A stretch of DNA of 64,000 nucleotides, taken from the NCBI GenBank assembly GCA_943736015.1, contig OX031065.1:43944992-44008991 (forward strand), read 5' to 3'. Made by a program: the position numbers and the translations under genes. Positions within the stretch are counted from its first letter, which is position 1; each line of letters starts with the position of its first letter. Below the pieces are notes generated by a model. It saw nothing but the letters and a program-made list of their open reading frames with translations. It did not search any database and was not told the DNA's origin. Positions 1,505-62,293 of this stretch are shown piece after piece. Origin of the DNA: Tridacna crocea (Eukaryota > Mollusca > Bivalvia > Cardiida > Cardiidae).

Positions 1505-2794
1505 ACAAGAGGGCCATGATGGCCCTGTATCGCTCCACTGGCTAATTCTTAAAAACACTACAAGCCAAACATTACATTATTTGGCCAACTGGTTTCTATG
1601 CATACAATTTTTTTAAAGACCAACAAAAAAGTTGTGACCCCTGGGCAAATCCAGTTTTGACCACAAAGCTATAATTACTTGAATCCTGGTGGAGGTCTAC
1701 AAGATAAAGCCCCAGACCAAATAATACAGGTCTAGAATGTGTGGTTATAAACAAGAAGATTTTCAAAGTTTTCTCAATAAAAGGCCCTGTAAAACATAAA
1801 ATCTATGAGACAGTGCTAAATTTAGTGGTCCTAGTCTTTATTATGGTTAGTAACAAGATGACTTAGAAAGTCTTCATCACAAAAGCCCATGTAAAACTTG
1901 TGACCCCTGGTGTGGGGACAAACTCGACCCTAACGCTATAATTTGGGCCCTCCTGGTAGAAGCCCATGAGATAAAGCTACATGCAAAATTTGGTAGCCCT
2001 AGGCCTTATAGCTAGGTACAAGTAGATTTTTAAAAAATTCCCAATAATTATGAGCCCATGTAAAACTTGTGACCCCCAGGACTGGGCCAAATTTGACCCC
2101 AGGGCTACAATTTGGGCACCTTTGGTAGACAACCACTTGATAAAGCTATATGCAAAATTGAGTAGCCCTAGGCCTTATGGCCTGGTACGAAAAGATTTTT
2201 AAAGTTTTCACTATATAAGCCCATATAAAACTTGTGACCCCCGGGGCCGGGCCAAATTTGACCTCTGGGCTATCATTTGGGCACTCTGGGTAGAGGTCTA
2301 CTAGATAAAGCTACATGCCAAATTTGGTAGCCCTAGGCCCTATGGCTAGGTACCAGAAGGATTTTAAAGTTTTCCCTATATAATCCCATATAAAACTTGA
2401 GACCCCCGGGGTGGGGCCACTTTTGACCCCAGGGCTAATATTTGAAGGCATTTGGTAGAGGTCCACTAGATAAAGCTACATGCCAAATTTGGTAGCCCTA
2501 GGTCTTATGGTTTCAGAGAAGAAGATTTTTAAAAATTTTCAATATTTTTCAGTTTTGTTGCCATGGCAACCAGAGTTTTTGAAGGAATAAAATTCTTTCA
2601 AGGAATTCTGAAGAGGACCATGGCAGGATCATTTCTGTGAAGTTTCATCAAAATTGGATGGGTAGTTTCAGAGAAGATGTTTGAAATAAAAGTTAACGCA
2701 CGCACGGACGCACGCACGCACGCACAGACGGACGGACGCACGACGGGCACTGGGCCATGACATAAGCCCGCTGGTCTTCGGCCAGTGGAGCTAA
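1505..2794 (+). mobile_element. Helentron-like minisatellite element M1, GCTCCACTGG family
   Basis: It starts ACAAGAGGGCCATGATGGCC (a 5' hairpin) followed by GCTCCACTGG at 1531-1540. It ends with a stem-loop around CTTCG and CCAGTGGAGC, then TAAAAATG. The interior holds about five diverged repeats of about 145 bp (GACCCC..GGTAGAGGTCCACTAG). A 3' module with GTTGCCATGGCAAC (2557-2570) and a run of GGACG/GCACG motifs follows. Non-coding. Confidence 0.75.
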
Positions 2795-2842
2795 AAATGA
2801 TTAGAATTTCTTTATGCTTATAAGTACAAATGTTAAAACCTT

Positions 2843-3071
2843 TTAACCCTTTCCAAACGACAAACTTTTGGACTAGACCAAAATGAAAGCATTAGCAGAC
2901 GAAATTTCAACTCTTGCTGAAAAGATGATTTCTGTCTTATGATAGGGTAGAAAACATTGTGGGAAAAGCAGAAAATGCTGGTTACCAGCATTTTCTTCTT
3001 TTCCCACAATGTTTTCAAAAGGCTACTATTCTAGATCCGTAAAAACCAGGGATTGTTTGGGAAAGGGTTAA
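2843..3071. mobile_element. TTAA-flanked palindromic MITE, family A
   Basis: Bounded by TTAA (2843-2846, 3068-3071). Ends are CCCTTTCCAAACGA and GTTTGGGAAAGGG. The central inverted repeat is around AATGCTGGTTACCAGCATT with outer arms AACATTGTGGGAAAA / TTTTCCCACAATGTT. Confidence 0.85.
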
Positions 3072-3084
3072 ATTTCCTTTGTGC

Positions 3085-3330
3085 AGGACTGGGGCAATGG
3101 AAAAGAAAGTAAGCAACAGACATTATATATTTGTTACTTTATAAAGTAAATATGTATGATTTCAAACGTGTGTATTTGTACTCATATATCTTTCCTAGGG
3201 TATATCTACAGGAATATTGAAAAATAGTTTTTACGGCTAAAAAAATATATTTGTAGCAGTATTTCCTTCTTTAAGCAGGTAATCTCAGAAGGGGAAATGG
3301 AAAAATTACCAAGTTCGAACAAGTACAATA
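3085..3330. repeat. Low-copy repeat J, copy 2
   Basis: Diverged copy of the block at 1203-1500: GCAATGGAAAAGAAA start, TGTATTTGTACTCAT middle, GGGGAAATGGAAAAATTACC end. Confidence 0.4.
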
Positions 3331-3404
3331 TAATGCACCCAACGCAGGTCTTAAAGTTCAGATTGAATTTTAAAATGGATAATAACTTGATTTAAATATC
3401 AACT

Positions 3405-5910: not shown

Positions 5911-5912
5911 TA

Positions 5913-7889: not shown

Positions 7890-8657
7890 AACTAGAGCTA
7901 TCACTAAACGTGATCATACCCCCCACCAGCTCCTTGTCACAAAACATCTCTTTGTAACAGAATGCAGCATGGTTTAGTATAAAAGAAACATTAAAAAAGA
8001 AAGACTATTTTGGAAAAAAAGAGAAACAAAGGGAAACCTGTCAATGGAAAATTATTAAACTGTAAACAAGTTATAATATGCACATACATGTATTTATTTT
8101 ATAGGGTAACTTCCTTTGAGGTTTGTTAGAAATCTGCTCAGCAGTTATTGCAAAATGAAGTGGACAAAAAAAATATAAAAGGGCCATAAGTAATTGGAAA
8201 ATCATTCAAGCATAAACAAATTGTAATATGCACATCTTGACCTCAGACTAAAAATCATTCAACCATAACACATTATAATAATACATCTTCATTTCATAAT
8301 GAAATTTCGCATGAAGTTTGACTGGAAGCTGTCCAGTAGATACTGAGAAATAGAGCTGACAATTGAAATCTGTTGAGTAGTTATTGAGAAATAGAGATTT
8401 TTAAAAATTTTCAATATTTTTCAGTTTTGTTGCCATGGCAACCAGAGTTTTTGAAGGAATAAAATTCTTTCAAGGAATTCTGAAGAGGACCATGGCAGGA
8501 TCATTTCTGTGAAGTTTCATCAAAATTGGATAGGTAGTTTCAGAGAAGAAGATGTTTGAAATAAAAGTTAACGCACACACAGACAGACGGACGCACAGAC
8601 ACACGACGGACACCGGGCCATGACATAAGCCCGCTGGCCTTTGGCCAGTGGAGCTAA
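7890..8657 (+). mobile_element. Chimeric minisatellite element M2 (5' of ATACCCCCC family, 3' of CCAGTGGAGC family)
   Basis: The 5' end is CTAGAGCTATCACTAAACGTGAT plus CATACCCCCC, as at 37421. From about 8390 the sequence is that of M1's 3' module, with the GTTGCCATGGCAAC site at 8429-8442 and stem-loop GCTGGCCTTTGGCCAGTGGAGC. The two ends therefore do not match each other. The right junction AAAATGCTGGTTACCAGC is half of a family A MITE. Confidence 0.65.
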
Positions 8658-8716
8658 AAATGCTGGTTACCAGCATTTTCTGCTTTTCCAACAATGATTT
8701 CAGATGGCTTCTTCCT
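8657..8716. mobile_element. MITE family A fragment (right half), insertion target of M2
   Basis: AAAATGCTGGTTACCAGCATTTT and following CTGCTTTTCC.ACAATG. This is the family A centre, entered by M2 exactly at its AAAATG. The left half is missing. Confidence 0.6.
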
Positions 8717-9426: not shown

Positions 9427-9675
9427 CTGTCAACATAAAAAACATGAGCCCTCAGTCTGTATTGCACTATCATTCTCAAAAAAAGTCTTTGCCTATAATT
9501 CTCCAGAATCTTGTAGATTTGAAAGTACCGCAACCTCCGATTGGTAAAACCAAATAATTTAGCCAATCATAAGTTGTATTATTTTCAAATTTCGGAAATT
9601 CTTTTGTAAGACTGATGATGAGCAGCTGCTGAATAAAACCTCTGAAAGGTCATGACCTTCTACAAATAAAAACAA

Positions 9676-11365
9676 GAGGACCACGATGGTCCTACATCGC
9701 TCACCTGAGTACCAAGCAGCAAAGGTCTAAAATAAGGATAAATACTAAATATCAAGGTTCATGGTCAAATGACAATGAAACAAGAGCAGCAAATTGTCAC
9801 AATTTGACTTGAGATTTCAAAGTTCAGTTCCGGATAAGCAAGAAATAGTGTAAAAATGAGGATCAAAGTGGAATTACTTGAAATCTGTGCAAGGTAGAGT
9901 TATTGTTCTTGCACACTGTACTCCGTAATATTGCAAAAAACATGCATACCAAGTTTGAAGTTGTTCTGACTTGAGATGACAATGTTATATTCCAGAGAGG
10001 CCTTAAATGCTGTAAAAATGTCATTCAAAGGGAAACAACTCAGTATGAGGCAGAGTTAGTACTCTTGTGCACTGCACTTCCAAATATTGCAACAAATAAG
10101 CATACCAGTCATTCCTACTTGAATTCACAAATTTTGCTCTGGACAAGCAAGAAATGCTATAAAAATGAAGGTCAAAGGGGAATAACTCAAAATTTGTGCT
10201 AGGAAGAGTTATAATTCTTGTGCACTGCACTCCATAATTTTTCAACAATCATACATATCAAATTTGAAGATATTCAGGCTGTTATGACAAAGTTATATTC
10301 CAGACAAGTAACAAATGCTGTAAAAATGACAATGAAAGGGAAATAACTCAAACAGTACGAGTTAAGAGTTACTGTTCTTTCACAGTGTACTCTGTATTAT
10401 TGCAACAAGCACAAATACCAAGTTTTAAGTCAATCAGACTGGAGATGACAAAGTTATGCTCCATACTAAGAACTATTCAAAAGAACATTCAATTCAAGGG
10501 CAAATAACTCCAGTTGTTCTAGTTTGATTGCACCCATAATCGAATTCATCCGAGATCTTACAGTCATATATATTTTGACCAAGTTTGATGCTGTTTGGTT
10601 GATATTTGTAGATGCTAGAGTGTAGACAAATTCAAATATAGCAATTATTATAATTCAAGGGCAAATAACTCCTGTGTTCTTGTCCGATTAGACCCAAAAT
10701 CACACTCATCCAAGATCTTAGGGTTATATACATTTTGGCCAAGATTAGTGCTGATTGATTGATGTTTGTAGATGCTAGAGTGTAAACAAATGCAAATATA
10801 GCAATTTTTCTAATTCAAGGGCAAGTAACTCCAGTCATTCTGGTCCGATCAAACCCTTAATCAACTCATCCAAGATCTTATGGTCATATATATTTTCACC
10901 AAGTTTGGTGCTGATTGGTTCATATTTGCAGATGCAAGAGTGTTAACAAAGTCAAATATAGCAATTTTTCTAATTCAAGGGCAAATAACTCCAGATGCTC
11001 TGGTCCGATTAGACCCACAATCAAACTCATCTGAGATCTTATGGTCATATATACTTTGTTCAAGTTTGGTGCTGATTGGTTGATATTTGTAGATGCTAGA
11101 GTGTAAACAAAGGGAAATATAGCAGTTTTTCTAATTCAAGGGCAAATAACTCCAGATGCTCTGGTCCGATTAGACCCATAATCGAACTCATCCATGATCT
11201 TATGGTCATTTATACTTTGACCAAGTTTGGTGCTGACTGGTTGATGTCTGTATAGATGCTAGAGTGTAAACAAAGAAATGTGAATGGACGGACAGACGCC
11301 GGATGCTGACAGACGGTGAGTGATCACAACAGCTCACTCTGAGAACTTTGTGCTCAGGTGAGCTA
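9676..11365 (+). mobile_element. Helentron-like minisatellite element M3, GCTCACCTGAG family
   Basis: 5' end CAAGAGGACCACGATGGTCC hairpin then CGCTCACCTGAG. 3' end stem-loop GCTCACTCTGAGAACTTTGTGCTCAGGTGAGCT. Two internal repeat types: about four units of about 160 bp with AGTGCAYTGCACTCC (9800-10500), then five units of 159-161 bp with AATTCAAGGGCAAATAACTCC (10490-11280). It sits in the intron between TEP exons 4 and 5, antisense to the gene. Confidence 0.82.
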
Positions 11366-11575: not shown

Positions 11576-12062
11576 AACTAGAAGGTCCTGAAGGGCCTGA
11601 ATATGCTCTACTGGCAGAGATTTTGCTTTTAAATGAAGCATGCATTAGGAATTCATCATGCAAAAAGACAAAAAATTGACATTTTCTTTTCAAAATGGCT
11701 ACTTTTCCATTACTGTTTGTTGAATTTTTTCAAACTCAACAGGGTTAAAAAGCTATTACTGAGATAAACAAGCTGAACAATTCAAAAAATCTGATCACAA
11801 AAAAATACTTTATCGTGTAAACAAGCAGTGAAATTGTCCAACTTGAAATGGCTACTTTTCCCATACTGTTTGTTGGATGTTTTTCAAAATCAATAGGGTT
11901 TAAGCTTGTGATGATACAAAAAAGTTATGCAAGTTTCATGAAAATTTGACCTCAAATGCAGACTTTATCACTTAAACAAGAAAAAGACTAACAGACGGAC
12001 AGACGAATGACAGAAACCACGCCATGACATAAGCTCTGCTGGCTTTCAGCCAGTAGAGCTAA
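11576..12062 (+). mobile_element. Helentron-like element M4, GCTCTACTGGC family
   Basis: Start CTAGAAGGTCCTGAAGGGCCT (hairpin), then GCTCTACTGGC at 11605-11615. End GCTCTGCTGGCTTTCAGCCAGTAGAGC stem-loop with GCCAGTAGAGC at 12049-12059, then TAAAAATG. It contains only about two internal units (GGCTACTTTTCC.TACTGTTTGTTG). Confidence 0.75.
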
Positions 12063-12604: not shown

Positions 12605-12616
12605 AGGCAAATCCAT

Positions 12617-14088: not shown

Positions 14089-14123
14089 CATAAATTCTGC
14101 TCTTTCTAAAACTTCACCTCCAT
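14089..14123 (-). CDS. Exon 3, short MG1 exon of TEP/A2M-family protein
   Basis: A 35-base micro-exon on the minus strand. The acceptor is a T-rich tract ending TTTACAG and the donor is GTAAGA directly after ATG. Its first two bases complete the split codon of the previous exon, and it then encodes GGEVLERAEFM in frame. It ends in phase 0, and the next exon starts cleanly with IPSNIAYSSSYSVKV. In A2M-family proteins this position is the end of MG1 just before the 'vP....gnY.L.V.' strand, which the joined sequence mimics. The adjacent intron side is occupied by a small minisatellite-type element beginning near 14134, only about 10 bases from the acceptor, so the polypyrimidine tract overlaps the left flank of the insertion. 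Confidence 0.62.
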
Positions 14124-14133
14124 CTGTAAAAAA

Positions 14134-14315
14134 AACTAGAGCTGTCACTAATGTGGCAATAATACCCCCTCCAGTGCTCTGACAGAAACAGGCAATCACT
14201 GGTATTTTGTACGCAGACGGGCAAACGAATACACCGACACACGGACACACACACAGACAAGCAGGCTGATTCCAGAACACCCGCCCCCCCAAACATTCAT
14301 TTTGTGAGGGTATAA
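14134..14315 (+). mobile_element. Small minisatellite-type element M5, ATACCCCC family, minimal
   Basis: Start CTAGAGCTGTCACTAATGTGGC (hairpin GTCAC/GTGGC) then AATACCCCCT. The end is a C-run ... TTTTGTGAGGGTATAA. About 180 bp, with only an (ACGGACAC)-like region and no full internal repeat. Directly followed by M6. Confidence 0.6.
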
Positions 14316-15569
14316 CAAGAGGACCATAATGGCCCTATAGTTTCTCACCTAAATCTTTTGACCAAACAAGACCCATTTTCAATCTCTTTTGAGATCAAAT
14401 GGCAAAACTTCTACCAAGATTTTCATAAGTATTTGAAAATGTGGTCTCTGAAGTGTACACAAGGTTTTACGAAGATTTGTCTCAGTGACCTAGTTATTGA
14501 CCCGACATGACCCATTTGCAAAATGGCCCAAGAAATCATCAGTGCAAACATTGTAAGTTTCATGAGCATTGCACTAAAATGTAGCCTCTAGAAAGTACAC
14601 AATCATGTTTTTTTCTTTTAAGGATTTGACCTAGTTTTCGATCCAACATTAATCATTTTTTAACTCGTCCAAGACATGATCAAAACAAATATTCTACCAA
14701 ACCTTGAAGACTTTCGAACTAGAAATGTGGCCTCCAGAGCTTACATAAGATTTTTCTAAGACATGTCCCGGTGACCTAGTTTTTGATCACATAAAGCCCA
14801 TTTTTGAACTCCACTGAGATATCTCACTGCAAACAGTCTGACTAACTTTCAAGAGTTTTGGAAAGAAAATGTGGCTTCAAGAGCATACTCAGTCTTTCTA
14901 AGATATGACCTAGTAACCTAGTTTTTAACCCAACATGACCCATTTTTACCTAGTGTAAGGTATCATCACGACAAATATTCTGACCATTTTTCAAGATTTT
15001 CAGACTGAAAATGTAGCCTCTAGAGCTTGCATAATGTTTTTCTCATAAATGACCTAGTTACCTATTTTTCTAACCAAACATGACCCATTTTCAAACTCAT
15101 CCAAGGTATCATCAAGTCTTAGTACAGGTCCACTAGGAGATGCTACTTACCAAATATCGAAGGTCCACACCTTCCAGTCTCACAAAAAAAGAATTTTAAA
15201 GTTTTCTTTCTCTGTTCCTATGTTCAAACTTGTGACCATCAGGGCGGGGCAGGTTTTGACCAAAGGAGCATAGTATGAACAAACTTGGTAGAGGTCCACT
15301 AGGAAATGGTACACATCAGATATCAAAGCTCCATGCCTTCTAGTTTCATCAGGGAAGATATTCAAAGATTTTACCCTTTTTTTTCCTTTTTGTTGCAATG
15401 GCAACCAGAGTAATGGGTGGAATTCAATTCTTTGAACAACTTTGGTTGATCCAGTGGTTTAAAAGATGTTTAAAGAAATTGCTGACAGACGATGGACGAC
15501 AGACAACAGACCCGGACAAAAGGCTGTCACAATAGCTCACCTTGAGCACGCTGTGCTCAGGTGAGCTAA
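14314..15569 (+). mobile_element. Helentron-like minisatellite element M6, TCACCT..AGGTGAGC family
   Basis: 5' CAAGAGGACCATAATGGCCC then TCTCACCTAAAT. 3' CTCACCTTGAGCACGCTGTGCTCAGGTGAGCTAA. The interior begins with about five 145-bp units (GACCCATTTT..GACCTAGTTTTTGACC) and switches at about 15120 to 165-bp units (GGTAGAGGTCCACTAGGAGATG). It is a mosaic of two repeat types. The RFX-like site is degenerate (15392-15405). Confidence 0.78.
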
Positions 15570-17531: not shown

Positions 17532-17690
17532 ACAACCGGAGGGTCATGATGGCCCTAAAGTTGCTCACCTGAGCCTTTTGATCTAACATGACCTATTTCC
17601 AATCTCTTCTCAGATATTATGACAAATGTTCTAAAAGGTTTGAAAAAATACTGGACCAAAAATGGAATGTACACAGTTTTTGCTATTTTA
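17532..17690 (+). mobile_element. Minisatellite element M7, 5' fragment
   Basis: CAACCGGAGGGTCATGATGGCCC then GCTCACCTGAGCC, followed by one 145-bp type unit (TGACCTATTTCCAATCTC). Cut on the right by the mariner at 17691. No 3' stem-loop found. Confidence 0.6.
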
Positions 17691-20019: not shown

Positions 20020-20383
20020 CGTTTGTGAAATATGACCAACCATGATGTTTACTTGATGAAATAAATTTTGGTCTTTCAACGAAAAAAACAAATATTCTAT
20101 CTATTTCATGCTTTTAATTTTTTCTAGGGGGAACTTAATCAATATCCAGTACAGCTCTTTTCAGTCATTCCCCATGGCTTGCCCCCTCTGCATAGCAACA
20201 TGTTACAACATTACTTCAAGCACAAGAAATGCAAGGTAAACTTCATTATATTTCAATCTGGTTGTGAGGCATGGGCTTTTTACCTAGGTATCAAGTGTGC
20301 TGGAAAACTGTTTCCCCTTTCAGTGAAGAATTAGAATACAAAAATTGGTATTTTCAGTGGTCGTTACCATGAAAAATGAAACA
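20020..20383. repeat. Repeat D copy 1, left part (split by M8)
   Basis: Shares with 26950-27400 the segments CTATTTCATGCTTTTA, CCCCATGGC/CCCCGTGGC, CATAGCAACR, AAATGCAAGGTAAA and a terminal CATGRAA..AAAAAATAT. Its right part resumes at 22844 (AAATATTTCAGTGATATT) after the minisatellite insertion. Confidence 0.6.
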
Positions 20384-21511
20384 AGAGGACCATGATGGTC
20401 CTATATCGCTCACCTGAGTACCAAGCAGCACAGGTCTAAATAAAGATAAATACCAAATAACAAGGTTCAAGGCCAAATGATAATGAAACAAGAGTAGCAA
20501 ATTGTTTCAATTTAACTTGAGACTTTTGAAGTTCCATTCCATATAAGCAAGAAATACTGTAAAAAGTTTGAAGTCGTTCTGACTGAAGATGACAGTTATA
20601 TTCAGGGCAGGCACTAAATGCTGTAAAAATGACATTCAAAGGGAAACAACTCAAAGACAGCACAAGGTAGAGTTACAATTCTTAGGCACTGCACTTCCAA
20701 ATATTGCAACAAATAAGAATACCAACTTTCAAGTCATTCCTCCTTAAGATGACAAAGTTTTGCTCCTGACAAGCAAGGAATCCTATAAAAATGAAGATCA
20801 AAGGGAGAATAACTCAAAATTTGTGTGAAGAAGTTATGCAATGCACTCCATAATTTTTCAACAATCATGCATATCAAATTTGAAGATGTTCAGGTCGTAG
20901 ATGACAGTTATATTCCAGACAAGCATTAAATGCTGTAAAAATTTAAATCAAAGGGAAATAACTCATAGACAGTACGAGGTAGAGTTATGGTTCTTTCACA
21001 ATGCACTCTGTTTTATTGCAACAAACACAAATGACAAGTTTCAAGTCAATCGGACTGGAGATGACAAAGTTATGCTCCAGACCAAGATCTATTATAAAGA
21101 ACTTTTAATTCACGGGCAAATAACTCCAACTATTGTGGTCTGATTACACCCATAATTGAACTCATCCGAGATCTTACAGTCATATATCTTTTGACCAAGT
21201 TTGGAACTAATTGTTTGATATTTGTAGATGCTATAGTGTAAACAAAGTGAAATACAGCAATTTTTCAAATTCAAGGGCAAATAACTCCAGTTGTTCTGGT
21301 CCAATTATATCCATAATCATACTCATCTGAGATCTTATGGTCATGTATATTTTGTCCAAGCTTGGTGCCAACTGGTTAATAATTGTAGATGCTAGAGTGA
21401 AAAAGTCAAATGTTACAATTTTTCTAATTCAAGGGCAAATAACTCTGGTTGTTCTGGTCTGATAAGACCCATAATCGAACACATCCGAGATCTTACAGTC
21501 ATATATCTTTT

Positions 21512-21716
21512 CTTACGAACAAAGTCCGTAACAAAGAAACAAATGAATAAATGCATGGCAGAAATAAGGATCGGAGCGGGATTCGAACTCCGAACTCCCG
21601 GACGCAAAGCCAATACCCTAACCACTGAGCCAAAGAGATATCTCCCTGACGCAGTAGCCAGGTATTGTATTTAAATCGGGAGAATGCCATGCAGGAAGGA
21701 GTGGTCTCCCGTAACA
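21512..21716 (-). repeat. TRIM LTR (3' LTR on minus strand), with tRNA-like module
   Basis: Contains on the minus strand TGGCTCAGTGGTTAGGG (A-box-like) and GAGTTCGAATCCC (B-box-like) spaced as in a tRNA, at about 21569-21640. Confidence 0.8.
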
Positions 21717-21718
21717 CA

Positions 21719-21727
21719 CCCCCTCTT
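21719..21727 (-). promoter_or_regulatory. Polypurine tract of the TRIM
   Basis: The minus strand reads AAGAGGGGG, two bases from the TGTTACGGG start of the second LTR. Position and composition fit plus-strand priming. Confidence 0.7.
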
Positions 21728-21814
21728 AAAGTCATCATTTATTGATGACTCAAAGCCTTATTAGGCAGGAAGTCCGATTTTGGACAACAAATGGGATTAA
21801 TGGCTCAATGGCCA

Positions 21815-21832
21815 ATCCCGGACGAGCCCCCA
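21815..21832 (-). promoter_or_regulatory. Primer-binding site, tRNA-Pro type
   Basis: The minus strand reads TGGGGGCTCGTCCGGGAT, the 18-base sequence complementary to the 3' end of tRNA-Pro used by many gypsy-like and gammaretroviral elements, one base from the LTR. Confidence 0.85.
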
Positions 21833-21833
21833 T

Positions 21834-22038
21834 CTTACGAACAAAGTCCGTAACAAAGAAACAAATGAATAAATGCATGGCAGAAATAAGGATCGGAGCG
21901 GGATTCGAACTCCGAACTCCCGGACGCAAAGCCAATACCCTAACCACTGAGCCAAAGAGATATCTCCCTGACGCAGTAGCCAGGTATTGTATTTAAATCG
22001 GGAGAATGCCATGCAGGAAGGAGTGGTCTCCCGTAACA
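21834..22038 (-). repeat. TRIM LTR (5' LTR on minus strand), with tRNA-like module
   Basis: Same 205 bp as the other LTR with no difference seen, including the tRNA-like A and B boxes. Confidence 0.8.
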
Positions 22039-22989
22039 CTTTTGACCATGTTTGGAACTAATTGGTTGATATTTGTAGATGCTAGAGAGTAAACAAAGTG
22101 AAATACAGCAATTTTTCGAATTCAAGGGCAAATAACTCCAATTGTTCTGGTCTGATTACAACCATAATCATACTCATCCAAGATCTTATAGTCACATATA
22201 ATTTGTCCAAGTTTTGTGCCAATTGGTTAATAATTGTAGATGCTAGAGTGAAAACAAAGTCAAAATGTAGCAATTTTTCTAATTCAAGGGCGAATAACTA
22301 TGGTCATTCTGGTCCGATTAGACCCATAATTGAACTCATCCGAGTTCTTATGGTCATATATATTTTGACCAAGTTTGGTGCTGATTGGTAAATATTTGTA
22401 GATGCTAGAGTGAAAACAAAGTCAAAATGTAGCAATTTTTTTAATTCAAGGGCAAGTAACTCCAGATGTTCTTGTCCGATTAGACCCATAATCAAACTCA
22501 TCTAAGTTCTTATGGTCATATATATTTTGACCAAGTTTGGTGCTGATTGGTTGATATTTGTAGATGCTAGAGTGTAAACAAAGTGAAATGTAGCAATTTT
22601 TTTAATTTACAGGCAAGTAACTCCAGATGTTCTGGTCCGATTAAACCAATAATCGAACTCATCCGAGATATTATAGTCATATACACGTTGACCAAGTTTG
22701 GTGCTGATTGGTTGATATTTGTAGATGCTAGAGTGTGAACATGGAAATGTGACCGGACGACGGACGGCCGGTCCACGGACGGACGCCGACGGAGGTAAGT
22801 GATCACAATAGGTCACTCTGAGCACTTCGTGCTCAGGTGAGCTAAAAATATTTCAGTGATATTTCTCATTTTATCCTTTCACCATTTCTATTCAACTTTT
22901 TACGAGACAAAAAACATTTTAGTCTACCATAATTATCAACATCATTTTGTAGATAAAAAATGAACAATCCTGGTTTTTTCAGCTCAGAT

Positions 22990-23346: not shown

Positions 23347-24266
23347 CAAGAGCGGCAAATTGTCACAAGATACGCCCGTCTTACCCCAAATTGTAAAGCT
23401 GGGGCATGCACCGGACAAAATTCAAGTATGAAAAACAACAAAGGGCAATAACTCAAAAATTAAGCAAGCAAGAGTTGTGATTCCTGTGCACTGCACTCCC
23501 CCTCAATGAGATCTATCCACCCATGAAATTTCATAACCCTAGCTAGTATAGTTTTGGAAATATGCTCCGGACAAAAATCATGTATGAAAAGGACAAAGGG
23601 CAATAACTCAAAAAGTAAGCAAGCAAGAGTTATGATTCCTGTGCATTGCACTCCCCCTCGGTGAGATCTATCCAACCATGAAATTTCATAACCCTAGCTA
23701 GTGTAGTTCTGGAGATATTCAGCGGACAAAATTCAAGTATAAAAACGGCAAAGGGCAATAACTCAAAAATTAAGCAAGCAAGAGTTATGAATCCTGTGCA
23801 CTGCACTCTCCCTCGATGAGATCTATCCACCCATAAAATTTCATAACCCTAGCTAGTATAGTTTTGGAGATATGCTCCGGACAAAATTCAAGTATGAAAA
23901 ACAACAAAGGGCAATAACTCAAAAATTAAGCAAGCAAGGGTTATGATTCCTGTGCACTGCACTCCTCCTCAATGAGATCTATCCACCCATGAAATTTCAT
24001 AACCCTAGCTAGTATAGTTTTGGAGATATGCTCCGGACAAAATTCAAGTATGAAAAACAACAAAGGGCAATAACTCAAAAGTTAAGCGAGCAAGAGTTAT
24101 GATTCCTGTGCACTGCACTCCCCCTCGATGAGATCTATCCACCCATGAAATTTCATAACCCTAGCTTGCATAGTTTTGGAGATATGACCGGACAAAGAAC
24201 TGGACGCCGCCCGCCCATCCGGCACGGGTGATCCCATAATACGTCCCGTCTTTGACGGGCGTATAA
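23347..24266 (+). mobile_element. Helentron-like minisatellite element M9, ATACGCCCGTC family
   Basis: 5' CAAGAGCGGCAAATTGTCAC (hairpin) then AAGATACGCCCGTC. 3' ATACGTCCCGTCTTTGACGGGCGTATAA. About five 156-bp units (CAATAACTCAAAAATTAAGC..GATCTATCCACCCATG). Confidence 0.88.
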
Positions 24267-38725: not shown

Positions 38726-40443
38726 CAAGAGGGCCAAGATGGCCCTGGATCGCTCACCTGAATTTTTGAGATGACTATAGCCTATTTCTTTTTTGAGGTA
38801 TTAAACATTGGAACCATATTTATATAGTTCCAATTTGTTTTGCTCAGCAATTTTCAAAAGGTCATCTGTAAAATTCATTTCGAAATCTGACCATCAGTTT
38901 CAAAAAGAAGAATTTTTAAGAATTCTTCATTTCTGTATAAGAGCAAGTATCCCCCATCCACTAGAATCATGTTTCTTGACGGATCATAATTTACGAACAA
39001 GTTTTCAAAAGGGTCACCCAAGGAACATTTCGGAATTTTTTTTTTAAAACCTGACCAGGGGTTTCAGAGAAAGAGAATTTTCAAGAATTTCATCATGTCC
39101 ATATAGTGCAAGTAGCTCCCATTCACAAGAGCAAGGATCACCCAAGGAACATCCCTGTCAAATTATTTTAAAATCCGACTAGGGGTTTCAGAGAAGAAGA
39201 ATTTTCAAGAATTTCTTCATTTCCTTATAGTGCAAGTAGCCCCCATTCACCAGAGCTATGTTTCTTGACGGATCAAAATTTTGTGAACAATTTTTGAAAA
39301 GGGTCACCCAAGGATCATCTCTGTGAAATCATTTCAAAATCTGTCCAGCCGTTTCAGAGAAGAAGAATTTTTAAAAATTTCTTCATTTCCCTATAGTGCA
39401 AGTAGCCTCCATTCACCAGAGCCATGTTTCTTGACCAATCAAACTTTCGCAAAAACTGTTTGAAAAGGTTCACCCAAGGAACATCCCTGAAAAATTAATT
39501 CAAAATCTGACCATCGGTTTCAGAGAAGAAAAATTTTTAAGTATTTCCTCATTTCCCTTTAGTGCAAGTAGCCCCCATTCACCAGAGCCACAATTTTTGA
39601 TGGATCAAAATTTCATGAACACTTTTTGAAAAGGGTCACCCAAGGAACATATCTGTGAAATAATTTCAAAATCCGACCAGCGGTTTCAGAGGAGAAGATT
39701 TTTAAAGAATTCCTTGATTTCTGTATAGTGCAAGTAGCCCCCATTCACCAGAGCCACAATTTTTGACAGATCAAAATTTCACGAACAATTTTGAAAAGGG
39801 TCACCCAAGGAACATATCTGTGAAATAATTTCAAAATCCGACCAGCGGTTTCAGAGGAGAAGATTTTTAAAGAATTCCTTCATTTCTGTATAGCGCAAGA
39901 AGCCCCCATTCACCAGAGCCATAATTTTTGACGGATCAAAATTTTACAAACAATTTTTGAAAAGGGTCACCCAAGGAACATATCTGTGAAATAATTTCAA
40001 AATCCGACCAGCGGTTTCAGAGGAGAAGATTTTTAAAGAATTCCTTCATTTCTGTATGGCGCAAGAAGCCCCCATTCACCAGAGCCATAATTTTTGACGG
40101 ATCAAAATTTTACAAACAATCTTTGAAAAGGGTCACCCAAGGAACATATCTGTGAAATAATTTCAAAATCCGACCATCGGTTTCAGAGGAGAAGATTTTT
40201 AAAGAATTTGCTAAAAAATTCTATTTGGTTGCCATGGCAACCAGAGTTTTTGACGGAATCAAATTCTGCGAACAGTTTTTAAAGAGGACCTCCCAAGGAT
40301 CATTCCTGCCAAGTTTGGTCCGAATTGGCCCAGCGGTTTAGGAGGAGTTGATGTTTAAAGAATTGTTGACGACGCACGACGCACGACGGACAGCCAGTGA
40401 CCCTAAAAGCTCCCCTTGAGCACGTTGTGCTCAGGTGAGCTAA
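38726..40443 (+). mobile_element. Helentron-like minisatellite element M15, GCTCACCTGAA family
   Basis: Same family as M12: 5' CAAGAGGGCCAAGATGGCCC and CGCTCACCTGAA; 3' CTCCCCTTGAGCACGTTGTGCTCAGGTGAGCTAA. About nine units of about 160 bp; the last few are nearly identical. Carries GTTGCCATGGCAAC at 40228-40241. Confidence 0.87.
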
Positions 40444-40990: not shown

Positions 40991-41866
40991 CAAGAGCGGC
41001 AAATTGTCGCAAGATACGCCCATCTTACCCCAAGTTGTAAAGCTGGGGCATGCACCGGACAAAATTCAAGTATGAAAAATGACAAAGGCACTAACTAAAA
41101 AATTAAACGAGCAAAAGTTATGATTCCTGTGCACCGCACTCCCCCTTGATGAGATCTATCCACCCGTGAAATTTCATAACCCTAGCTCGTATAGTTTTGG
41201 AGATATGCTTCGGACAAAATTCAAGTATGAAAAACGACAAAGGGCAATAACTCAAAAATTAAGCAAGCAAGAGTTATGATTCCTGTGCAATGCACTCCCC
41301 CTTGATGAGATCTATCCACCCATGAAATTTCATAATCCTAGCTAGTATAATTTTGGAGATATCCTCCGGACAAAATTCAAATATTAAAAAAAACAAAGGG
41401 CAATAACTCAAAAATTTAAGTGAGCAGGAGTTATGATTCCTGTGCATTGCACTCCCTCTTGGTGAGATCTATCCACCCATGAAATTTCATAACCCTGGCT
41501 AGTATACTTTTGGAGATATGCTCCGGACAAAATTCAAGTATGAAAAACAACAAAGGGCAATAACTCAAAAATTAAGCTGGCAAGAGTTATGATTCCTGCG
41601 CACTGCACTCCCCCTCGATGAGATCTATCCACCCATGAAATTTCATAACCCTAGCTAGTATAGTTTTGGAGATATGCTCCGGACAAAATTCAAGTATGAA
41701 AAACAACAAAGGGCAATAACTCAAAAATTAAGCTGGCAAGAGTTCTGATTCCTGCGCACTGCACTCCCCCTCGATGAGATCTATCCACCCATGAAATTTC
41801 ATAACCCTAGCTAAAATAGTTTTGGAGATATGCTGCGGACAAAGAACTGGACGCCGCCCGCCCGTC
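40991..41866 (+). mobile_element. Helentron-like minisatellite element M16, ATACGCCC family, 3' end missing
   Basis: 5' CAAGAGCGGCAAATTGTCGC and AAGATACGCCCATC; about five 156-bp units. It stops at GACGCCGCCCGCCCGTC and joins family A MITE sequence without the terminal stem-loop. Confidence 0.8.
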
Positions 41867-43690: not shown

Positions 43691-45805
43691 CAAGAGGGCC
43701 AAAATCGCTCACCTGAGTCTATTGACCAAACATGAACCATCTAGTTTCCCAGTGACCTAGTTTTTTATCAGACATTACCCGTCATCAAACACTTTTGAGA
43801 TATCAATAAGACAAACATTCTGACCAAGTTTCATGAGTATTGGACTGAAAATGTGGCCTCTACAGCATACAAAAGGTGTTTCTAAGATTTCACCAAGTGA
43901 CCTAGTTTTGGAGCCGACAATTACCCAACTCTTTTGAGACATCACCAAAACAAACATTCTGACCAAGTCTGAAGAGTATCAGGCAGAAAATGTAGGCACT
44001 AGAGCGTACAAAAGGTTTTTCTAATATTTGACCCATTGACCTAGTTTTTGACTCCACATGACCCATTTAAGGTATCACCAGGACAAATATTATGAACAAG
44101 TTTTAGGAGTATCAGATTGAAAATGTGTCCTCCAGAGCATACAAAAGTTGTTTATAACATTTGACCTATTGACCCAGTTTTTGACCCAACATGACCCATT
44201 TTCAAACTCATCCAAGATTATTATATACGCAAACATTCCGACCAATTTTCAAGAGTGTTGGACTGAAAAGGACGCATCCAGAGCATATGCAAGGTTTTTC
44301 TAAGATTTGACCTTGTGACCAAGTCTTTAACCCCCAATGACACACTTTCAAATTTGTCTAATATATCATCAAGGCAAACATTCTGACCAACTTACAAGAG
44401 TTTTGGACTGAAAATGTGGCCTCTAGAGCCTACCAAAGGTTTTTCTAACATTTGACCTGGTGACCTAGTTTTTGACTCCACATGACCCATTTTCAAACTC
44501 GTCCAAGATATCATAAAGGCAAATATTCTGACCAACTTTCAAGAGTTTTGGACTGAAAATGTGGCCTCTAGAGCGTACACAAGGTTTTTCTAAGATTTGA
44601 CCTAGTGACCTAGTTTTTGACCCCACATGACCCATTTTCAAACTTGTCTGAGATATCATCAAGACAAACATTCGGACCAACTTTCAAGAGTTTTGGACAG
44701 AAAATGTGGCCTCTAGAGCATACACAAAGTTTTCTACAATTTGATATAGTGACCTAGGTTTTGAGATTTCATCAAGGCACACATCCTGACCAACTTTCAT
44801 GAGTATCCGACTGAAAATGTGGCCTCTAGAGCGTACACAAGGTTTTTCTAAGATTTGCCCTAGTGACCTAGTTTTTGACCTGACATGAACCATTTTCCGA
44901 CTTGTCCGAGATATCATCAAGACAAACATTCTGACCAACTTTCAAGGGTTTTGGACTGAAAATGTGGCCTCTAGAGCATACACAAGGTTTTTCTAAGATT
45001 TGACCTAGTGACCAAGTTTTTGACGCGACATGACCCATTTTCAAACTTATCCAAGATATCATCCAGGCAAACATCCTGACCAATTTTCATGAGTATTGGA
45101 CTGAAAATGTGGCGTCAAGAGCGTACACAAGGTTTTTCTAAAATTTGACCTAGTGACCTAGTTTTTGACCCAACATGACCCATTTTCAAACTCTTCCAAG
45201 ATATTATCATGACAAACATTCTAAAGAAGTTCAAAGAGTTTTGGACTGAAAATGTGGCCTCTAGAGTGTACACGAGGTTTTTCTAAGATTTGACCTAGTG
45301 ACCTAGTTTTTGACCTGACATGACCTATGTTCAAACTCGTATAAGATACAATCCAGGCAAATATCCTGACCAACTTTCATGAGTATCCGACTGAAAATGT
45401 GGCCTCTAGAACATACACAAGGTTTTTCTAAAATTTGACCTAGTGACCTAGTTTTTGATCCCACATGACCCATTTTCAAACTCGTCCGACACATCATCCA
45501 GACAAACATCCTGACCAACTTTCATGAGTTTCTGACGGAAAATGTGGTCTCTAGAGCATACACAAGTTTTTTTTCTAAGATTTGATCTAGTGTCCTAGTT
45601 TTTGACCCGACATGAGCCATTTTCGAACTTGTCTGAGATTTCATCGAGGCAAACATCCTGACCACTTTTCATGGGTATCGGACCGAAAATTTGGACTCTA
45701 GAATGACACAAGGTAAAAAGTTGACAACACACGGCAGACGACGGACGACAGACACAGCATGATCACAATAGCTCACCATGAGCACTTCGTGCTCAGGTGA
45801 GCTAA
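43691..45805 (+). mobile_element. Helentron-like minisatellite element M18, GCTCACCTGAG family, long 145-bp array
   Basis: 5' CAAGAGGGCCAAAATCGCTCACCTGAG (hairpin shortened); 3' CTCACCATGAGCACTTCGTGCTCAGGTGAGCTAA. About 14 units (GACCTAGTTTTTGACCC.ACATGACCCATTTTCAAAC), with exact 145 bp spacing for 45014, 45159, 45304 and 45449. Confidence 0.88.
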
Positions 45806-56647: not shown

Positions 56648-57785
56648 GAAGAGGCCCATGATGGCCCTAAAATCGCTCACCTGAGTCTATTGACCATACA
56701 TGAACCATCTAGTTTCCCAGTGACCTAGTGTTTTATCAGACATTATCCATCATCAAACACTTTTGAGATATCAATAAGACAAACATTCTGACCAAGTTTT
56801 CTTGAGTATTGGACTGAAAATGTGGCCTCTACAGCATACAAAAGGTTTTTCTAAGATTTCACCAAGTGACTTATTTTTGGACCCAACAATTACCCATTAT
56901 CAAACTCTTTTGAGACATCACCAAAACAAACATTCTGACCGAGTCTGAAGAGTATCAGGCAAAAAATGTGGCCTCTAGAGTGTACACAAGGTTTTTCTAA
57001 TATTTGACCCATTGACCTAGTTTTTGACTCCACATGACCCATTTTCAAACTCATTCAAGGTATCACCAGGACAAATATTATGAACAAGTTTTAGGAGTAT
57101 CAGATTGAAAATGTGTCCTCCAGAACATACAAAAGGTGTTTAAAACATTTGACCCAGTTTTTGACCCAACATGACCCATTTTCAAACTCATCCAAGATAT
57201 TATAAAGGCAAACATTCTGACTAATTTTCAAGAGTGTTGGACTGAAAATGTGGCATCCAGAGCATATACAAGGTTTTTCTAAGATTTGACCTGGTGACCC
57301 AGTTTTTAACACCCAATGACCCATTTTCAAACTTGTCTACTATATCATCAAGGCAAACATTCTGACCAACTTACAAGAGTTTTGGACTGAAAATGTGGCC
57401 TCTAGAGCCTACAAAAGGTTTTTCTAGCATTTGACCTGGTGACCTAGTTTTTGACTCCACATGACCCATTTTCAATCTCATCCAAGATATCATAAAGGCA
57501 AATATTCTGACCAACTTTCAAGAGTTTCGGACTGAAAATGTGGCCTCTAGAGCGTACACAAGGTTTTTCTAAGATTTGACCAAGTGACCTAGTTTTTGAC
57601 CCCACATGACCCATTTTCAATCTTGTCTGAGATATCATCCAGGCAAACATCCTGACCAATTTTCATGAGTATCCAACTAAAAATGTGGCCTTTAGAGAGT
57701 ACACAAGGTTTTTTTAAGATTTGACCTAGTTTTAGACCTAGCATGACCCATTTTCAAACTTGTCCTAGATTTCATCAAGGCAACA
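56648..57785 (+). mobile_element. Helentron-like minisatellite element M19, 3' end missing
   Basis: 5' GAGGCCCATGATGGCCC then CGCTCACCTGAG; about eight 145-bp units collinear with M18 and M17. It breaks off at CATCAAGGCAAC into block-H-like sequence. Confidence 0.8.
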
Positions 57786-58168: not shown

Positions 58169-59005
58169 CACAGGAATTTGACATTCTATAACCAAAATAA
58201 ATGATAAAATATGAAAACAAGAGGGCCAAGATGGCCCTGGATGGCTCACCTGAATTTCTGAGAGAACCATAGCCATTTCTTTCAAAATGTAATCAGCCCG
58301 TTCAGAGAAGAAGAATTTTTCAGAATTTCTTCATGTCTGTATAGTGTAAATAGTGCACAGTCATCAGAGCCATGTTTCTTGATGGATCAAAATTTCTAAA
58401 GCAATTTTTGAAAAGGGTTAGCTAAGAAACATTAATTTTCTGAGAAATTATTTCAAAATCTGATCAGCTGTTTCAGAGAAAAAGAATTTCTTCATGGCCA
58501 AATAGTGCAAGTAGCCCCAGTTTACCAGAGCCATGTTTCTTGGCCTATCAAAAAAATTCCATTTGGTTGCCATGGCAACCAGAGTTTTTGATGGAATCAA
58601 ATTCTGTGAAAAGTTTTTAAAGAGGACCTCCCAAGGAACATCCCAGCCAAGTTTGGTCCAAATCCGCACAGCGGTTTCGGAGGAGTTAATGTTTAAATTA
58701 TTGTTGGCGACTCAGGACGCACAACACACGACGGACACCGGGTGATCCTAAAAGCTCCCCTTGAGCACGCTGTGCTCAGGTGAGCTAAAAAAACCTCCCC
58801 TATATAATATAAACACAAGGAATGCAACGCCTCGATTGACAGTGCCAGCACAAGATGGCCTTTCGCACCCAAAATTTGGTTTTGAAAGGTTGTCGGGTGC
58901 TAGCGCCAGCAATAGAGATGTTACATTCCTTGTGTTTATACTATATAGGGAAGTTTTTTTTCATATTTGATCATTTATTTTGGTAATAGAATGTCAAATT
59001 CGTGT
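58169..59005. mobile_element. Long-armed palindromic element, split by M20
   Basis: Left arm CACAGGAATTTGACATTC..AAAATAAATGATAAAATATG is the near-perfect reverse complement of the right arm ending GAATGTCAAATTCGTGTG. Inner arms CTATATAATATAAACACAAG / CTTGTGTTTATACTATATAG continue the pairing. Without M20 it is about 270 bp, foldback type. Confidence 0.8.
58218..58788 (+). mobile_element. Helentron-like minisatellite element M20, short
   Basis: 5' CAAGAGGGCCAAGATGGCCC then GCTCACCTGAA; 3' CTCCCCTTGAGCACGCTGTGCTCAGGTGAGCTAA. Fewer than two internal units of the M12/M15 type; GTTGCCATGGCAAC at 58566-58579. Confidence 0.87.
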
Positions 59006-59184: not shown

Positions 59185-59266
59185 CACTGCTTTACCCGAC
59201 AAAAACATTTTCCATAACATTTTCAAAAGCCTTCTCCCTATGAATAGTCAAAGGTAAGATTGTGTG
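59185..59266. mobile_element. MITE family A remnant, left of repeat G
   Basis: TTTTCCATAACATTTTCAAAAGCCTTCTCCC..GATTGTGTG; its end GATTGTGCAGTACAGAATTAA follows repeat G. Confidence 0.6.
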
Positions 59267-59667
59267 CATCTTCGCAAGCCAAGGCTGACGATTCAATAAG
59301 CTACTCTACCCTTGGCGGATTGATCTTGATTTTTACATTCTCCCGATATGCTTTTTCATTGGATGCTGCCAGCTCTAACTGCAACTATTGAAATCGCTCA
59401 TAGCATTTCATGTTTAATAAAAATAGAATAAGGTCGCTACCTTTCGAATAAAAGGTAAAAGTGGAAACCATGTGGATGTCTGCTTATCGCTTGATGTGTA
59501 TTCGTAAGCGGTTTGTAAAACGATACTTCCTTGGCTTTAAGAAATAGGATGTAAAGGGGGGTAATAACCGGCATACAATAGAGGGTGCATCTCAGGAATC
59601 TCGAAATGGGGCTCAATCAGCCAAGGTAAGATCTACGTAGTGATTGTAACCTTGGCTCACGAAGATG
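59267..59667. mobile_element. Repeat G copy 2, terminal inverted repeats
   Basis: Ends CATCTTCGCAAGCCAAGGCT and an inverted counterpart ACCTTGGCTCACGAAGATG; flanked by GATTGTGTG / GATTGTGCA, an 8-9 bp duplication within a MITE. Confidence 0.75.
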
Positions 59668-59702
59668 GATTGTGCAGTACAGAATTAAATACATGAGTGA
59701 CC

Positions 59703-59769
59703 AAGGTCAGTATTCCCTAACCATTCTTTGGAAGCATGTTCTTACTCTTATAGTCTAAAATGGTCTTAA
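59703..59769. mobile_element. MITE family I copy 3, left part
   Basis: AAGGTCAGTATTCCCTAACCATTCTTTGGAA; the right part is at about 62350-62425 (AGAATATTGAGAAAGGTTGGTAAATATGGACCCTT) after two later insertions. Confidence 0.6.
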
Positions 59770-59994
59770 CCCTTTACTCCATAGATACTCATTTCTATGC
59801 ATTGCTTGTGGGAGCCTTTGGAAAACATTGTGGCAAAAGGTGAAATTGCTCATCACGAGCAATTTCACCTTTAGCAACAATCTTTTCTACACTATCAAAA
59901 GGTGTCATCTACACATAAGAAATGTCTTCATCCTAGCTGCTATTTAGGGTCAGTTAGAGATACCACAGTAATGCCTTAAAGGTTAAAGGGTTAA
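59766..59994. mobile_element. MITE family B
   Basis: TTAACCCTTTACTCCATAG to CTTAAAGGTTAAAGGGTTAA; centre AAATTGCTCATCACGAGCAATTT. Confidence 0.85.
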
Positions 59995-60001
59995 TTAAAA
60001 A

Positions 60002-62293
60002 AGAGGGCCATGATGGCCCTAAAATTGCTCACCTGAGTCTACTGACCAAACATGAACCATCTAGTTTCCCAGTGACCTAGTGTTTTATCAGACATTACCC
60101 ATCATCAAACACTTTTGAGATATCAATAAGACAAACATTCTGACCAAGTTTTCATGAGTATTGGACTGAAAATGTGGCTTCTACAGCATACAAAAGGTTT
60201 TTCTAAGATTTCACCAAGTGACTTATTTTTGGACCCCATTAATACCCATTATCAAATTCTTTTGAGACATCACCAAAACAAACATTCTGACCAAGTCTGA
60301 AGAGTATCAGGCAAAAAATGTGGCCTCTAGAGTATACACAAGGTTTTTCTAATATTTGACCCATTGACCTAGTTTTTGACTCCACATGACCCATTTTCAA
60401 ACTCATTCAAGGTATAACCAGGACAAATATTATGAACAAGTTTTAGAAATATCAGACTGAAAATGTGTCCTCCAGAGCATACAAAAGGAGTTTATACCAT
60501 TTGACCTATTGACCCAGTTTTTGACCCAACATGACCCATTTTCAAACTCATCCAAGATATTTTAAAGGCAAATATTCTGACTAATTTTCAAGAGTGTTGG
60601 ACTGAAAATTAGGCATCCAGAGCATATACAAGGTTTTTCTAAGATTTGACCTTGTGACCTACTTTTTAACCCCCAATGACCCATTTTCAACTCGTCTACT
60701 ATATCATCAAGGCAAACATTCTGACCAACTTACAAGAGTTTTGGACTGAAAATGTTGCCTCTAGAGCCTACAAAAGGTTTTTCTAACATTTGACCTTGTG
60801 ACCTAGTTTTTGACTCCACATCACCCATTTTCAAAATCTCCAAGATATCATACAGGCAAATATTCTGACCAATGACCAACTTTCAAGAGCTTCGGACTGA
60901 AAATGTGGCCTCTTGAGCGTACACAAGGTTTTTCTAAGATTTGACCTGGTGATCTAGTTTTTGACCCCACATGACCCATTTTTGAACTTGTCTGAGATAT
61001 CATCAAGACAATCATTCTGACCAACTTTCATGAGTTTCAGACTGAAAATGTGGCCTCTAGAGCGTACACAAGGTTTTTCTAAAGTTTGACCTAGTGACCT
61101 AGTTTTGGACCCTACATGATCCATTTTCGATCTTGTCTGAGATATCATCCAGGCAACCATCCTGACCAATTTTCATGAGTATCTGACTGAAAATGTGGCC
61201 TTTACAGCTTACGTAAGGTTTTTCTAAGATTTGACCTAGTGACCTACTTTTTGACCTGGCACAACTCATTTTCAATCTCGTCCAAGATTTCATCAAGGCA
61301 CACATCCTGACCAACTTTCATACTGAAAATTTGGCCTCTAGAGCTTACACAAGCTTTTTCTAAGATTTGATCTAATGACGTAGCTTTTGACCTGACATGA
61401 ACCATTTTCGGAGATATCATCCAGACAAACATTCTGACCAACTTTCAAGAGTATCAGACCGAAAAAGTGGCCTCTAGAGCATACATAAGGTTTTTCTAAG
61501 ATTTGACCTAGTGACCTAGTTTTTGGCCCGACATGACCCATTTTCAAACTCATCCAAGATATCATCCAGGAAGATATCCTGACCAACTTTCATGAGTATC
61601 GGACTGAAAATGTGGCCTCTAGAACGTTCACAAGGTTTTTCTAAAATTTGACCTAGTGACCTAGTTTTTGACCCGTCATGACCCATTTTCAAACTTGTCT
61701 GAGATATCATCAAGACAAACATTTTGAAGAACTTCTAAGAGTTTTGGACTGAAAATGTGCCTTTAAAGCGTACACAAGTTTTTTCTAAGATTTGACCTAA
61801 TGACCAAGTTTTTGACCCGACGTGACCCATTTTCAAACTCGTCCAAGATATCATCCAAGCAAACATCCTGACCAACTTTCATGAGTATCCGACTGAAAAT
61901 GTGGCCTCTAGGGAGTACACAAAGTTTTTCTAAAATTTTGCCTAGTGACCTAGTTTTTGACCCCACATGATTATTTTTGACTTCATCTGAGATTTCATCC
62001 AGACAAACATCCTGACCAATTTTCATGAGTATCCGACTGACAATGTGGCCTCTAGAGCGTACACAAAGTTTTTCTAATATTTGACCTAGTGACCTAGTTT
62101 TTGACCTGACATGACCCATTTTCGAATTCGTCTGAGATTTCATTGAGGCAAACATCCTGACCAACTTTCATGACTATCGGACCAAAAATGTGGCCTCTAG
62201 AGCGTACACAAGGTAAAAAGTTGACGAAGACGCACGACAGACACAGCACGATCACAATAGCTCACCATGAGCACATCGTGCTCAGGTGAGCAA
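60002..62293 (+). mobile_element. Helentron-like minisatellite element M17, 145-bp array
   Basis: 5' AGAGGGCCATGATGGCCC then GCTCACCTGAG; 3' CTCACCATGAGCACATCGTGCTCAGGTGAGC. About 15 units of the M18 type. It begins eight bases after the family B MITE. Confidence 0.87.

Follow-up and report, generated by a model that had tools for sequence, protein, structure and literature searches.

The described systems closest to the elements reported here are HINE / DINE-1, Cg_HINE and Helitron2. HINE / DINE-1 elements (Thomas et al. 2014, PMC4067079) carry subterminal inverted repeats (subTIRs), close to the terminus on the 5' side and set inward on the 3' side, a 3' palindrome, a T-rich target that is not modified, and Rep-helicase-endonuclease parents; their families are set by identical subTIRs, some with tandem repeats. 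Cg_HINE of the Pacific oyster (Vojvoda Zeljko et al. 2020, PMC7492417) has an 11-12 bp subTIR with its own complementary repeat, a GTC-type microsatellite, a central satellite-like array, a 3' subTIR with palindrome and a T-rich target, and subTIR and array change together between elements. For Helitron2 (Bao and Jurka 2013, PMC3627910) asymmetric terminal inverted repeats (ATIRs), a 5' ATIR hairpin, a 3' ATIR just upstream of a 3' hairpin and insertion after T-runs are described, and pairing of the two ATIRs was proposed there. As far as the available sections of these and the other papers cited here go, the same structures are found in a 64,000-nucleotide stretch of the bivalve Tridacna crocea (contig OX031065.1, positions 43,944,992 to 44,008,991; the window), which contains about 20 short elements, all of which can be read on the minus strand. 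Previous papers (PMC3627910, PMC7492417) already give the element plan, the coupled family differences and the pairing hypothesis.

The window elements are very probably HINEs, i.e. internal-deletion derivatives of autonomous Helentrons (Rep, PIF1 helicase, endonuclease) of the same genome, moved in trans by the protein of the parent. Architecture, shared ends and arrays, coding content and target are the observed basis of this reading. In the proposed mechanism the traced subfamilies would have retained a few hundred to about 1,300 bases of the parent 5' side, with hairpin ATIR, GTC microsatellite and the parent's array, and its last 40 to 200 bases, with 3' ATIR, 3' hairpin and CTTG or CTAG. 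Transposition would be of the single-strand, rolling-circle type, driven in trans by the parent protein and directed into T-runs, with no target duplication, and 3' hairpin and ATIRs would mark the end of the copied strand. We propose that the joint change of the ends results from the descent of each family from a single parent and from its need to be recognized by a single enzyme. Unlike HINE / DINE-1, the elements here carry satellite-like arrays of about 142-167 bp whose monomers also occur in the parent, and unlike Helitron2 the parents have an endonuclease-like region and satellite arrays. Autonomous partners of Cg_HINE could not be linked, whereas some subfamilies here have partners with the same ends and monomers. 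Within the open-licence literature searched, and as far as the searches reach, two results are new: autonomous partners of satellite-bearing bivalve HINEs, and local orientation agreement of Helitrons.

On the minus strand the elements consist of a T-run, the 5' ATIR, mostly inside a hairpin of its own, then a GTC-type microsatellite, in most cases a tandem array (unit length about 142-167 bp), the 3' ATIR, a short spacer, the 3' hairpin and mostly CTTG or CTAG. As in Helentrons and HINEs, the subTIR lies close to the terminus on the 5' side and farther in on the 3' side, and a palindrome is present between 3' subTIR and 3' terminus. Five families differ in the 5' ATIR: A, GCTCACCTGAG; B, GCTCCACTGG; C, GCTCTACTGG; D, ATACGCCCGTC; and E, ATACCCCCC. 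The 3' ends of A, B and D are mostly CTTG, those of C and E are CTAG; the C element (CCTTCTAG) and the element at 60001-62292 (CTCTTT) are exceptions in the 3' terminus, and the tandem-repeat table shows no array for the C element and the short element at 58218-58786. An earlier note on this DNA had described about 20 elements on one layout with five pairs of 5' motif and 3' arm; the layout is borne out apart from these missing arrays and variant termini, and all five pairs were found as written.

The elements and single ends, in window coordinates, are:

1505..2792, minus strand: B element, both ends, 165-bp array (motif ends, tandem-repeat table)
7892..8655, minus strand: mixed element whose B 5' end gives way at about 8396 to an E interior with an E 3' end
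9673..11364, minus strand: A161 element, both ends, largely collinear with the autonomous element h2
11578..12060, minus strand: C element with both ends; the tandem-repeat table lists no array
14136..14314, minus strand: E-like ends, 3' at 14170 and 5' (decayed, by eye) at about 14313; not a counted pair
14317..15567, minus strand: A element with a motif-defined 5' end; the 3' end is decayed and was located by similarity (41 bp, 85%) and reading
17535..17573, minus strand: decayed A 3' end, orphan, approximate terminus
20382..22843, minus strand: A161 element, both ends; 5' and 3' ends match h2
23347..24264, minus strand: D element, 156-bp array, paralogous empty site 59267-59515
30270..31654, minus strand: D element, paralogous empty site 50355-50751
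32701..33669, minus strand: A element; 5' end with 167-bp-type array, no 3' end found
33767..35168, minus strand: A166 element, both ends, paralogous empty sites
35932..37192, minus strand: A167 element, 161-type 3' end, different 5' subtype
37421..38527, minus strand: E element, both ends; 3' module and array match the decayed Rep copy at C2:7.21 Mb
38726..40441, minus strand: A166 element, both ends, which match the autonomous elements h8 and h9
40991..41843, minus strand: D 3' end and array; 5' end not found
43691..45803, minus strand: A145 element, both ends
56650..57783, minus strand: A145 3' end and array; 5' end not found; approximate terminus
58218..58786, minus strand: short A166 element with paralogous empty sites; both ends present, array absent from the table
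60001..62292, minus strand: A145 element, both ends, 3' terminus CTCTTT

A two-strand motif scan, which overlooks some decayed ends (33668, 17573, 14350), delivered 15 distinct 5' ends and 18 distinct 3' ends (one, E at 55820, weak and unassigned) on the minus strand, and one 5' end and two 3' ends, together making no element, on the plus strand. With at most one mismatch GCTCACCTGAG has 18 matches in the window vs 0.48 expected from shuffles. In the genome (1.05 Gb searched) its exact matches number 12,687 + 12,773, vs 25 + 17 for the reversed control; at most one mismatch being allowed, 14,305 A 5' ends and 11,632 A 3' ends were counted, and reversed-pattern controls gave 0.

A profile search of the genome with PF14214 yielded 32 matches at about 29 distinct loci. 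Wider flanks were examined at 12 Rep loci, as well as 1 kb beside L029. Both ends were found at six of the 12 loci: A ends in L008 (h8), L009 (h9) and L002 (h2), other ends in L012, L017 and L020. An A161-type 3' end is present at L011, where the 3' side only was examined. The h8 element (C11) spans 14.3 kb with an open frame of 2,728 amino acids and h9 (C1) spans 14.7 kb with one of 2,575; they are two separate copies, 93% identical over 6.5 kb around the open reading frame (ORF). In both, Rep (PF14214) and PIF1 helicase lie in one ORF. The domain order of h8 is Herpes_teg_N-like, DUF6570, Rep and PIF1, and an endonuclease-like region stands at the end of h8 and h9. Their 5' side reads TTTTTAGCTCACCTGAGCAC...GTGCTC with 166-bp-type array sequence nearby, their 3' side TTCAGGTGAGCG(A/T)TCC-hairpin-CTCTTG. 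The alignment of a paralog with the h8 3' region stops at the terminus, which supports a true 3' end of h8. In h2 the Rep is located at C1:73.58 Mb; the element measures about 16.7 kb by coordinates and has A161-type ends and a 161-bp array. GDFN and SDH, which we take to be endonuclease motifs, are present in the endonuclease-like region of the parents. Matches of this region to PF03372 are below the curated cut-off (h9 3.1e-5, 24.3 bits vs 24.5; h8 0.0038), and LINE-1 endonuclease matches to the C-terminal region of h8 and h9 are weak (E 0.18-0.25). The Herpes_teg_N-like domain (Pfam, 2.2e-9) occupies residues 313-457 of the h8 frame (L038, minus strand), in the N-terminal part.

The A166 elements of the window match h8 over 331 bp at 88% at the 5' end and 40 bp at 97.5% at the 3' end, and h9 over bases 93-440 of the 440 queried (348 bp, 94%) and 70 bp at 94% at the 3' end. 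The first 1.3 kb of h2 matches window positions 22850-22316 (85%) and 10593-9894 (80%), and its last 125 bp match at 80-85%, positions 20502-20379 at 85%. Over the last 40 bases, the 161-type ends (9709, 20418 and A167 at 35968) share 36-40 matches with h2 and 29-33 with h8/h9, the three A166 copies 37-39 with h8/h9 and 33-34 with h2, and, for comparison, the B end 34 with h2 and 32-33 with h8/h9. Such subfamily-specific matches at both ends are as internal deletion predicts for A161 and A166. For family E, a decayed Rep copy (L025, C2:7.21 Mb) has the E 3' module downstream (203 bp, 98%) and E array sequence upstream (508 bp at 92.5%, 560 bp at 89%). Autonomous Rep-helicase elements with matching ends, for which the earlier note had called, are thus at hand for A166 (h8, h9) and A161 (h2), partly for E (array and 3' end), and were not found for B, C and D. 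The assignment to Helentrons, given there as a surmise, is now well supported by parents that share ends and array monomers with the elements, by the endonuclease-like region in two of them and by T-run insertion without duplication at the readable sites.

Several points weigh against the derivation of the elements from such parents. Transposition itself was not observed. The 5' terminus of the E parent (L025) was not found in the 4 kb examined, and a parent for B, C or D was not found at the 12 Rep loci with wider flanks examined. Four of these loci have no end assignable to the Rep element (L001 on both sides; L003, L006 and L007 on the 3' side, the only one examined); near L007 an A 5' end and a CCTTCTAG hairpin are present that were not attributed to the Rep element. 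The endonuclease matches are under the Pfam curated cut-offs, at best by 24.3 vs 24.5 bits. The ends of h2 and L011 are each known from a single copy, and the h2 sequence examined excludes helicase and C-terminus.

HINEs spread satellite-like DNA in bivalve genomes, and the oyster paper (PMC7492417) left the source of the enzyme unresolved. The ends and monomers shared with Rep-encoding parents, in two subfamilies and in part in a third family, name a likely driver, and the link to the parent suggests how satellite arrays get dispersed.

Other Rep copies were rejected as parents. The Rep-helicase families with the motif HWHGLCW (L012, L017 and L020; located at L031:4255 to L032:6256, L033/L034 and L035/L036) have coupled ends of their own, AGCGAGCAGCGC, CGGGCGAAAGA and AATACGGGCGGAAAGGC, with the 3' hairpins ATAGGC-CGT-GCCTAT or TAGGC-TTT-GCCTA. 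The L012 member contains an OTU protease domain and showed no endonuclease match in the frames scanned. Exact B and C 10-base motifs flank the L017 Rep-helicase locus (L033, L034), away from its assigned ends. L019 and L029 resembled parents, yet they are A166 HINEs in or beside decayed Rep copies; the HINE of L019 extends from about 73-1615, that of L029 from 1891 into the first approximately 90 bases of L037, where it breaks off in the 5' hairpin. Both h8 (X1130 and X1807, L045) and h9 (Y2568, L048; Y3507, L046, one mismatch) possess a second 5' end in or beside the array and one 3' end. Two 5' termini by self-insertion are described for FoHeli of Fusarium (PMC5148889), unlike which the second 5' end of h8 and h9 lies in or beside their own satellite array.

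For the coupling of the two ends, each 3' end in the window was taken with the next 5' end on the same strand, family labels being assigned by hand. The orphan ends 17573 (A), 33668 (A), 41024 (D), 56685 (A) and the weak 55820 (E) were omitted. The family matched in 14 of 15 end pairs (shuffled mean 6.0), a value reached in 0 of 100,000 shuffles. One pair, at about 14317-15567, rests on a decayed A 3' end near 14350 that was overlooked by the motif scan and recovered by BLAST. Without this pair 13 of 14 match (0/100,000 shuffles), and with the pairs of the motif scan alone, in which the E 3' end at 14170 falls together with the A 5' end at 15566, 13 of 15 (1/100,000 shuffles). Read by eye, 14120-14380 holds the decayed A 3' end and directly next to it a decayed-looking E 5' end that would partner the E 3' end at 14170. 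In the mixed element 7892-8655 a B 5' part is followed by E sequence, interior and 3' end, and the two parts seem to meet at a short stretch common to both. Independent variation of the ends, named by the earlier note as the outcome that would speak against it, is thus seen in one window element and is repeated by none of the other candidates scored: its junction was spanned by 0 of 39 (40 of 8,100 first-look candidates were scored, including the window), all of which align from exactly base 305 of 821, as ordinary E elements.

Beyond the window, the first 11.87 Mb of C1 contribute 76 listed A 3' ends, of which at least 36 are accompanied on their own strand by a listed A 5' end not more than 3.5 kb upstream, at a distance of 1.1 to 2.9 kb; as these lists contain exact pattern matches only, 36 is a lower bound. 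Among the matches listed, the controls gave 0/76 for a 5' end on the opposite strand and 6/76 for one downstream. In the same set, 3' ends of the main GGGCC type go with an AAC 5' loop in 21 of 22 pairs, a further pair joins a GGGCC variant to an AAC loop, and the 13 pairs with GGACC-type 3' ends have five loops (AAC 5, GAA 4, ATA 2, AAA 1, AAG 1). The finer coupling of 5' loop with 3' type is therefore partial. The looseness of the GGACC type, like the descent of whole elements from separate parents, which is supported for two subfamilies, agrees with the view that coupling reflects descent only and that neither pairing nor a shared site is selected. We consider this improbable: the rule of an inverted match is kept across differently lettered families, including the three Rep-helicase families with other ends, and under descent alone independent decay of the match at the two ends would be expected by reasoning.

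Insertion sites were studied with flank-joined queries of 13 window elements and h8, h9 and h2 against the window and the loci fetched. Junction-spanning paralogs were obtained for five window elements. D_23380, D_30303, A166_33803 and A166_58254 (best matches 85-89%) are inserted in a T-run with no duplication beyond the T count, apart from one ambiguous A besides T-run length at the empty-site junction of A166_33803; A166_38762 has weak empty-site matches of 73-79%. For the other 11 queries no spanning paralog was found in the window and the fetched loci. The base after the 3' terminus is T in 11 of the 13 elements with flanks read and C and G in the remaining two. At the readable sites the target is T-rich and without target site duplication, as in Helentrons and HINEs. 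Canonical Helitrons (Helitron1) begin with 5' TC, end with 3' CTRR, insert between A and T and have no 5' inverted repeat. In contrast, the elements here carry ATIRs, insert in T-runs and have 5' ends in which a T-run precedes A or ATAC; the CTAG of C and E fits CTRR. The elements are short and numerous and have inverted motifs at both ends, which would also suit cut-and-paste miniature inverted-repeat transposable elements (DDE) or tyrosine-recombinase elements with coincidental hairpins. This origin is very hard to credit, because the motifs are inset at one end only, the readable empty sites show no target duplication apart from T-run length, and the ends are common to Rep-helicase elements; neither the symmetric terminal inverted repeats nor the fixed-length target duplication of the DDE type was seen.

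Covariation of the 3' hairpin was evaluated in eight hairpins, typed by hand, from A166, A161, B, D and E; the C hairpin was omitted for its other loop length. Of all cells, 95% pair, with changes on both sides in four of five pairs and sliding controls at 19-45%. By eye, 97 of 100 listed A 3' ends have pairing bases and three non-pairing ones, mostly in two lineages; the pattern used for this list permitted A/G at one position and C/T at the position opposite. Single-stranded DNA folding covered nine ends, none from C and no B 3' end. It was better than shuffles for the 3' ends of A161, A166 and E (z -2.0 to -2.9) and the 5' ends of A161, A166, D and E (z -3.7 to -5.4). Two ends, D 3' (z +0.57) and B 5' (z -0.17), folded no better than shuffles.

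The earlier note had argued that coupled change means that the pairing itself is used. This does not follow: the two ATIRs are one sequence inverted, so that one protein site at both ends, or descent, gives the same coupling. Selected pairing may nevertheless be added to the HINE reading, without replacing it. Physical pairing of the ATIRs would then take place as strand transfer ends, with the 3' ATIR opening the 5' hairpin and setting the end point. The 5' ATIR hairpin in four of five folded 5' ends, ATIRs that match in 14 of 15 window elements and a mixed-end element repeated by none of the 39 other scored candidates speak for it. On the other side, a double-stranded protein site or descent alone would likewise give identical inverted sites, and the B 5' hairpin folds no better than shuffles. 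Moreover, A166 retains an outer-base mismatch, 5' GCTCACCTGAG vs 3' TTCAGGTGAG, in the three both-ended copies of the window and in both parents; pairing thus need not be perfect. On balance we regard selected pairing as a serious possibility, slightly short of an even chance.

All 15 paired elements of the window point one way. Orientation was followed on C1 in exact matches listed for 100 A 3' ends (17 Mb), 100 D (58 Mb) and 21 E (64 Mb). These lists, and that of A 5' ends below, cover the first places along a single chromosome, pairs from the same cluster are not independent of each other and the window is not a random choice; all of the following counts are among the matches listed. The same orientation was found in 23/25 pairs below 10 kb, 30/37 at 10-30 kb, 39/48 at 30-60 kb, 42/59 at 60-100 kb, 37/61 at 100-150 kb and 58/129 at 150-250 kb, with about half beyond. 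Copies up to about 100 kb apart thus tend to point alike, and by 150-250 kb the agreement is down to chance. Adjacent pairs up to 100 kb apart agree in 78 of 97 cases; for pairs that join two families the count is 26 of 29 (binomial p 8e-6). For A 5' ends, a set that overlaps partly with the elements of the 3'-end set, adjacent pairs agree in 19/20 (below 10 kb), 13/19 (10-30 kb), 20/28 (30-100 kb) and 14/31 (beyond); the effect is weaker in adjacent pairs of different subtype (GAA loop or not), with 19 of 25. Since the agreement holds between families, local duplication was rejected as its cause. T-runs outside the elements number 167 vs 152 (at least 5 long) and 36 vs 21 (at least 7 long), and from the counts of this window such an asymmetry looks too small to be the cause.

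Fork direction, gene strand or strand-biased targets may be the cause; in the 10 scanned of the 26 listed window ORFs of at least 95 codons, no Pfam family was found. Because the effect is large and crosses families, we favor fork direction among these. We tentatively suggest, with more doubt than confidence, that Helentron orientation in this animal is set by a local chromosomal direction, most simply that of the replication fork, and that the copies record it in domains of about 100 kb; a T-run exposed single-stranded on one template strand would orient the insertion. If true, thousands of independent Helentron copies would record fork direction. For IS200/IS605 (review PMC5371812) an orientation that follows chromosomal direction is reported for replication; these elements differ in being bacterial and in using another enzyme, and the replication link proposed here is hypothetical. 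Insertion in both orientations is described for Cg_HINE, and the available sections of PMC7492417 mention no local orientation agreement. The agreement across families was unexpected and makes target choice and entry of eukaryotic rolling-circle elements testable from genome data.

A dispersed repeat with the palindrome AATGCTGGTAACCAGCATT borders some element ends in the window, e.g. at 48283-48317 and 8670-8690.

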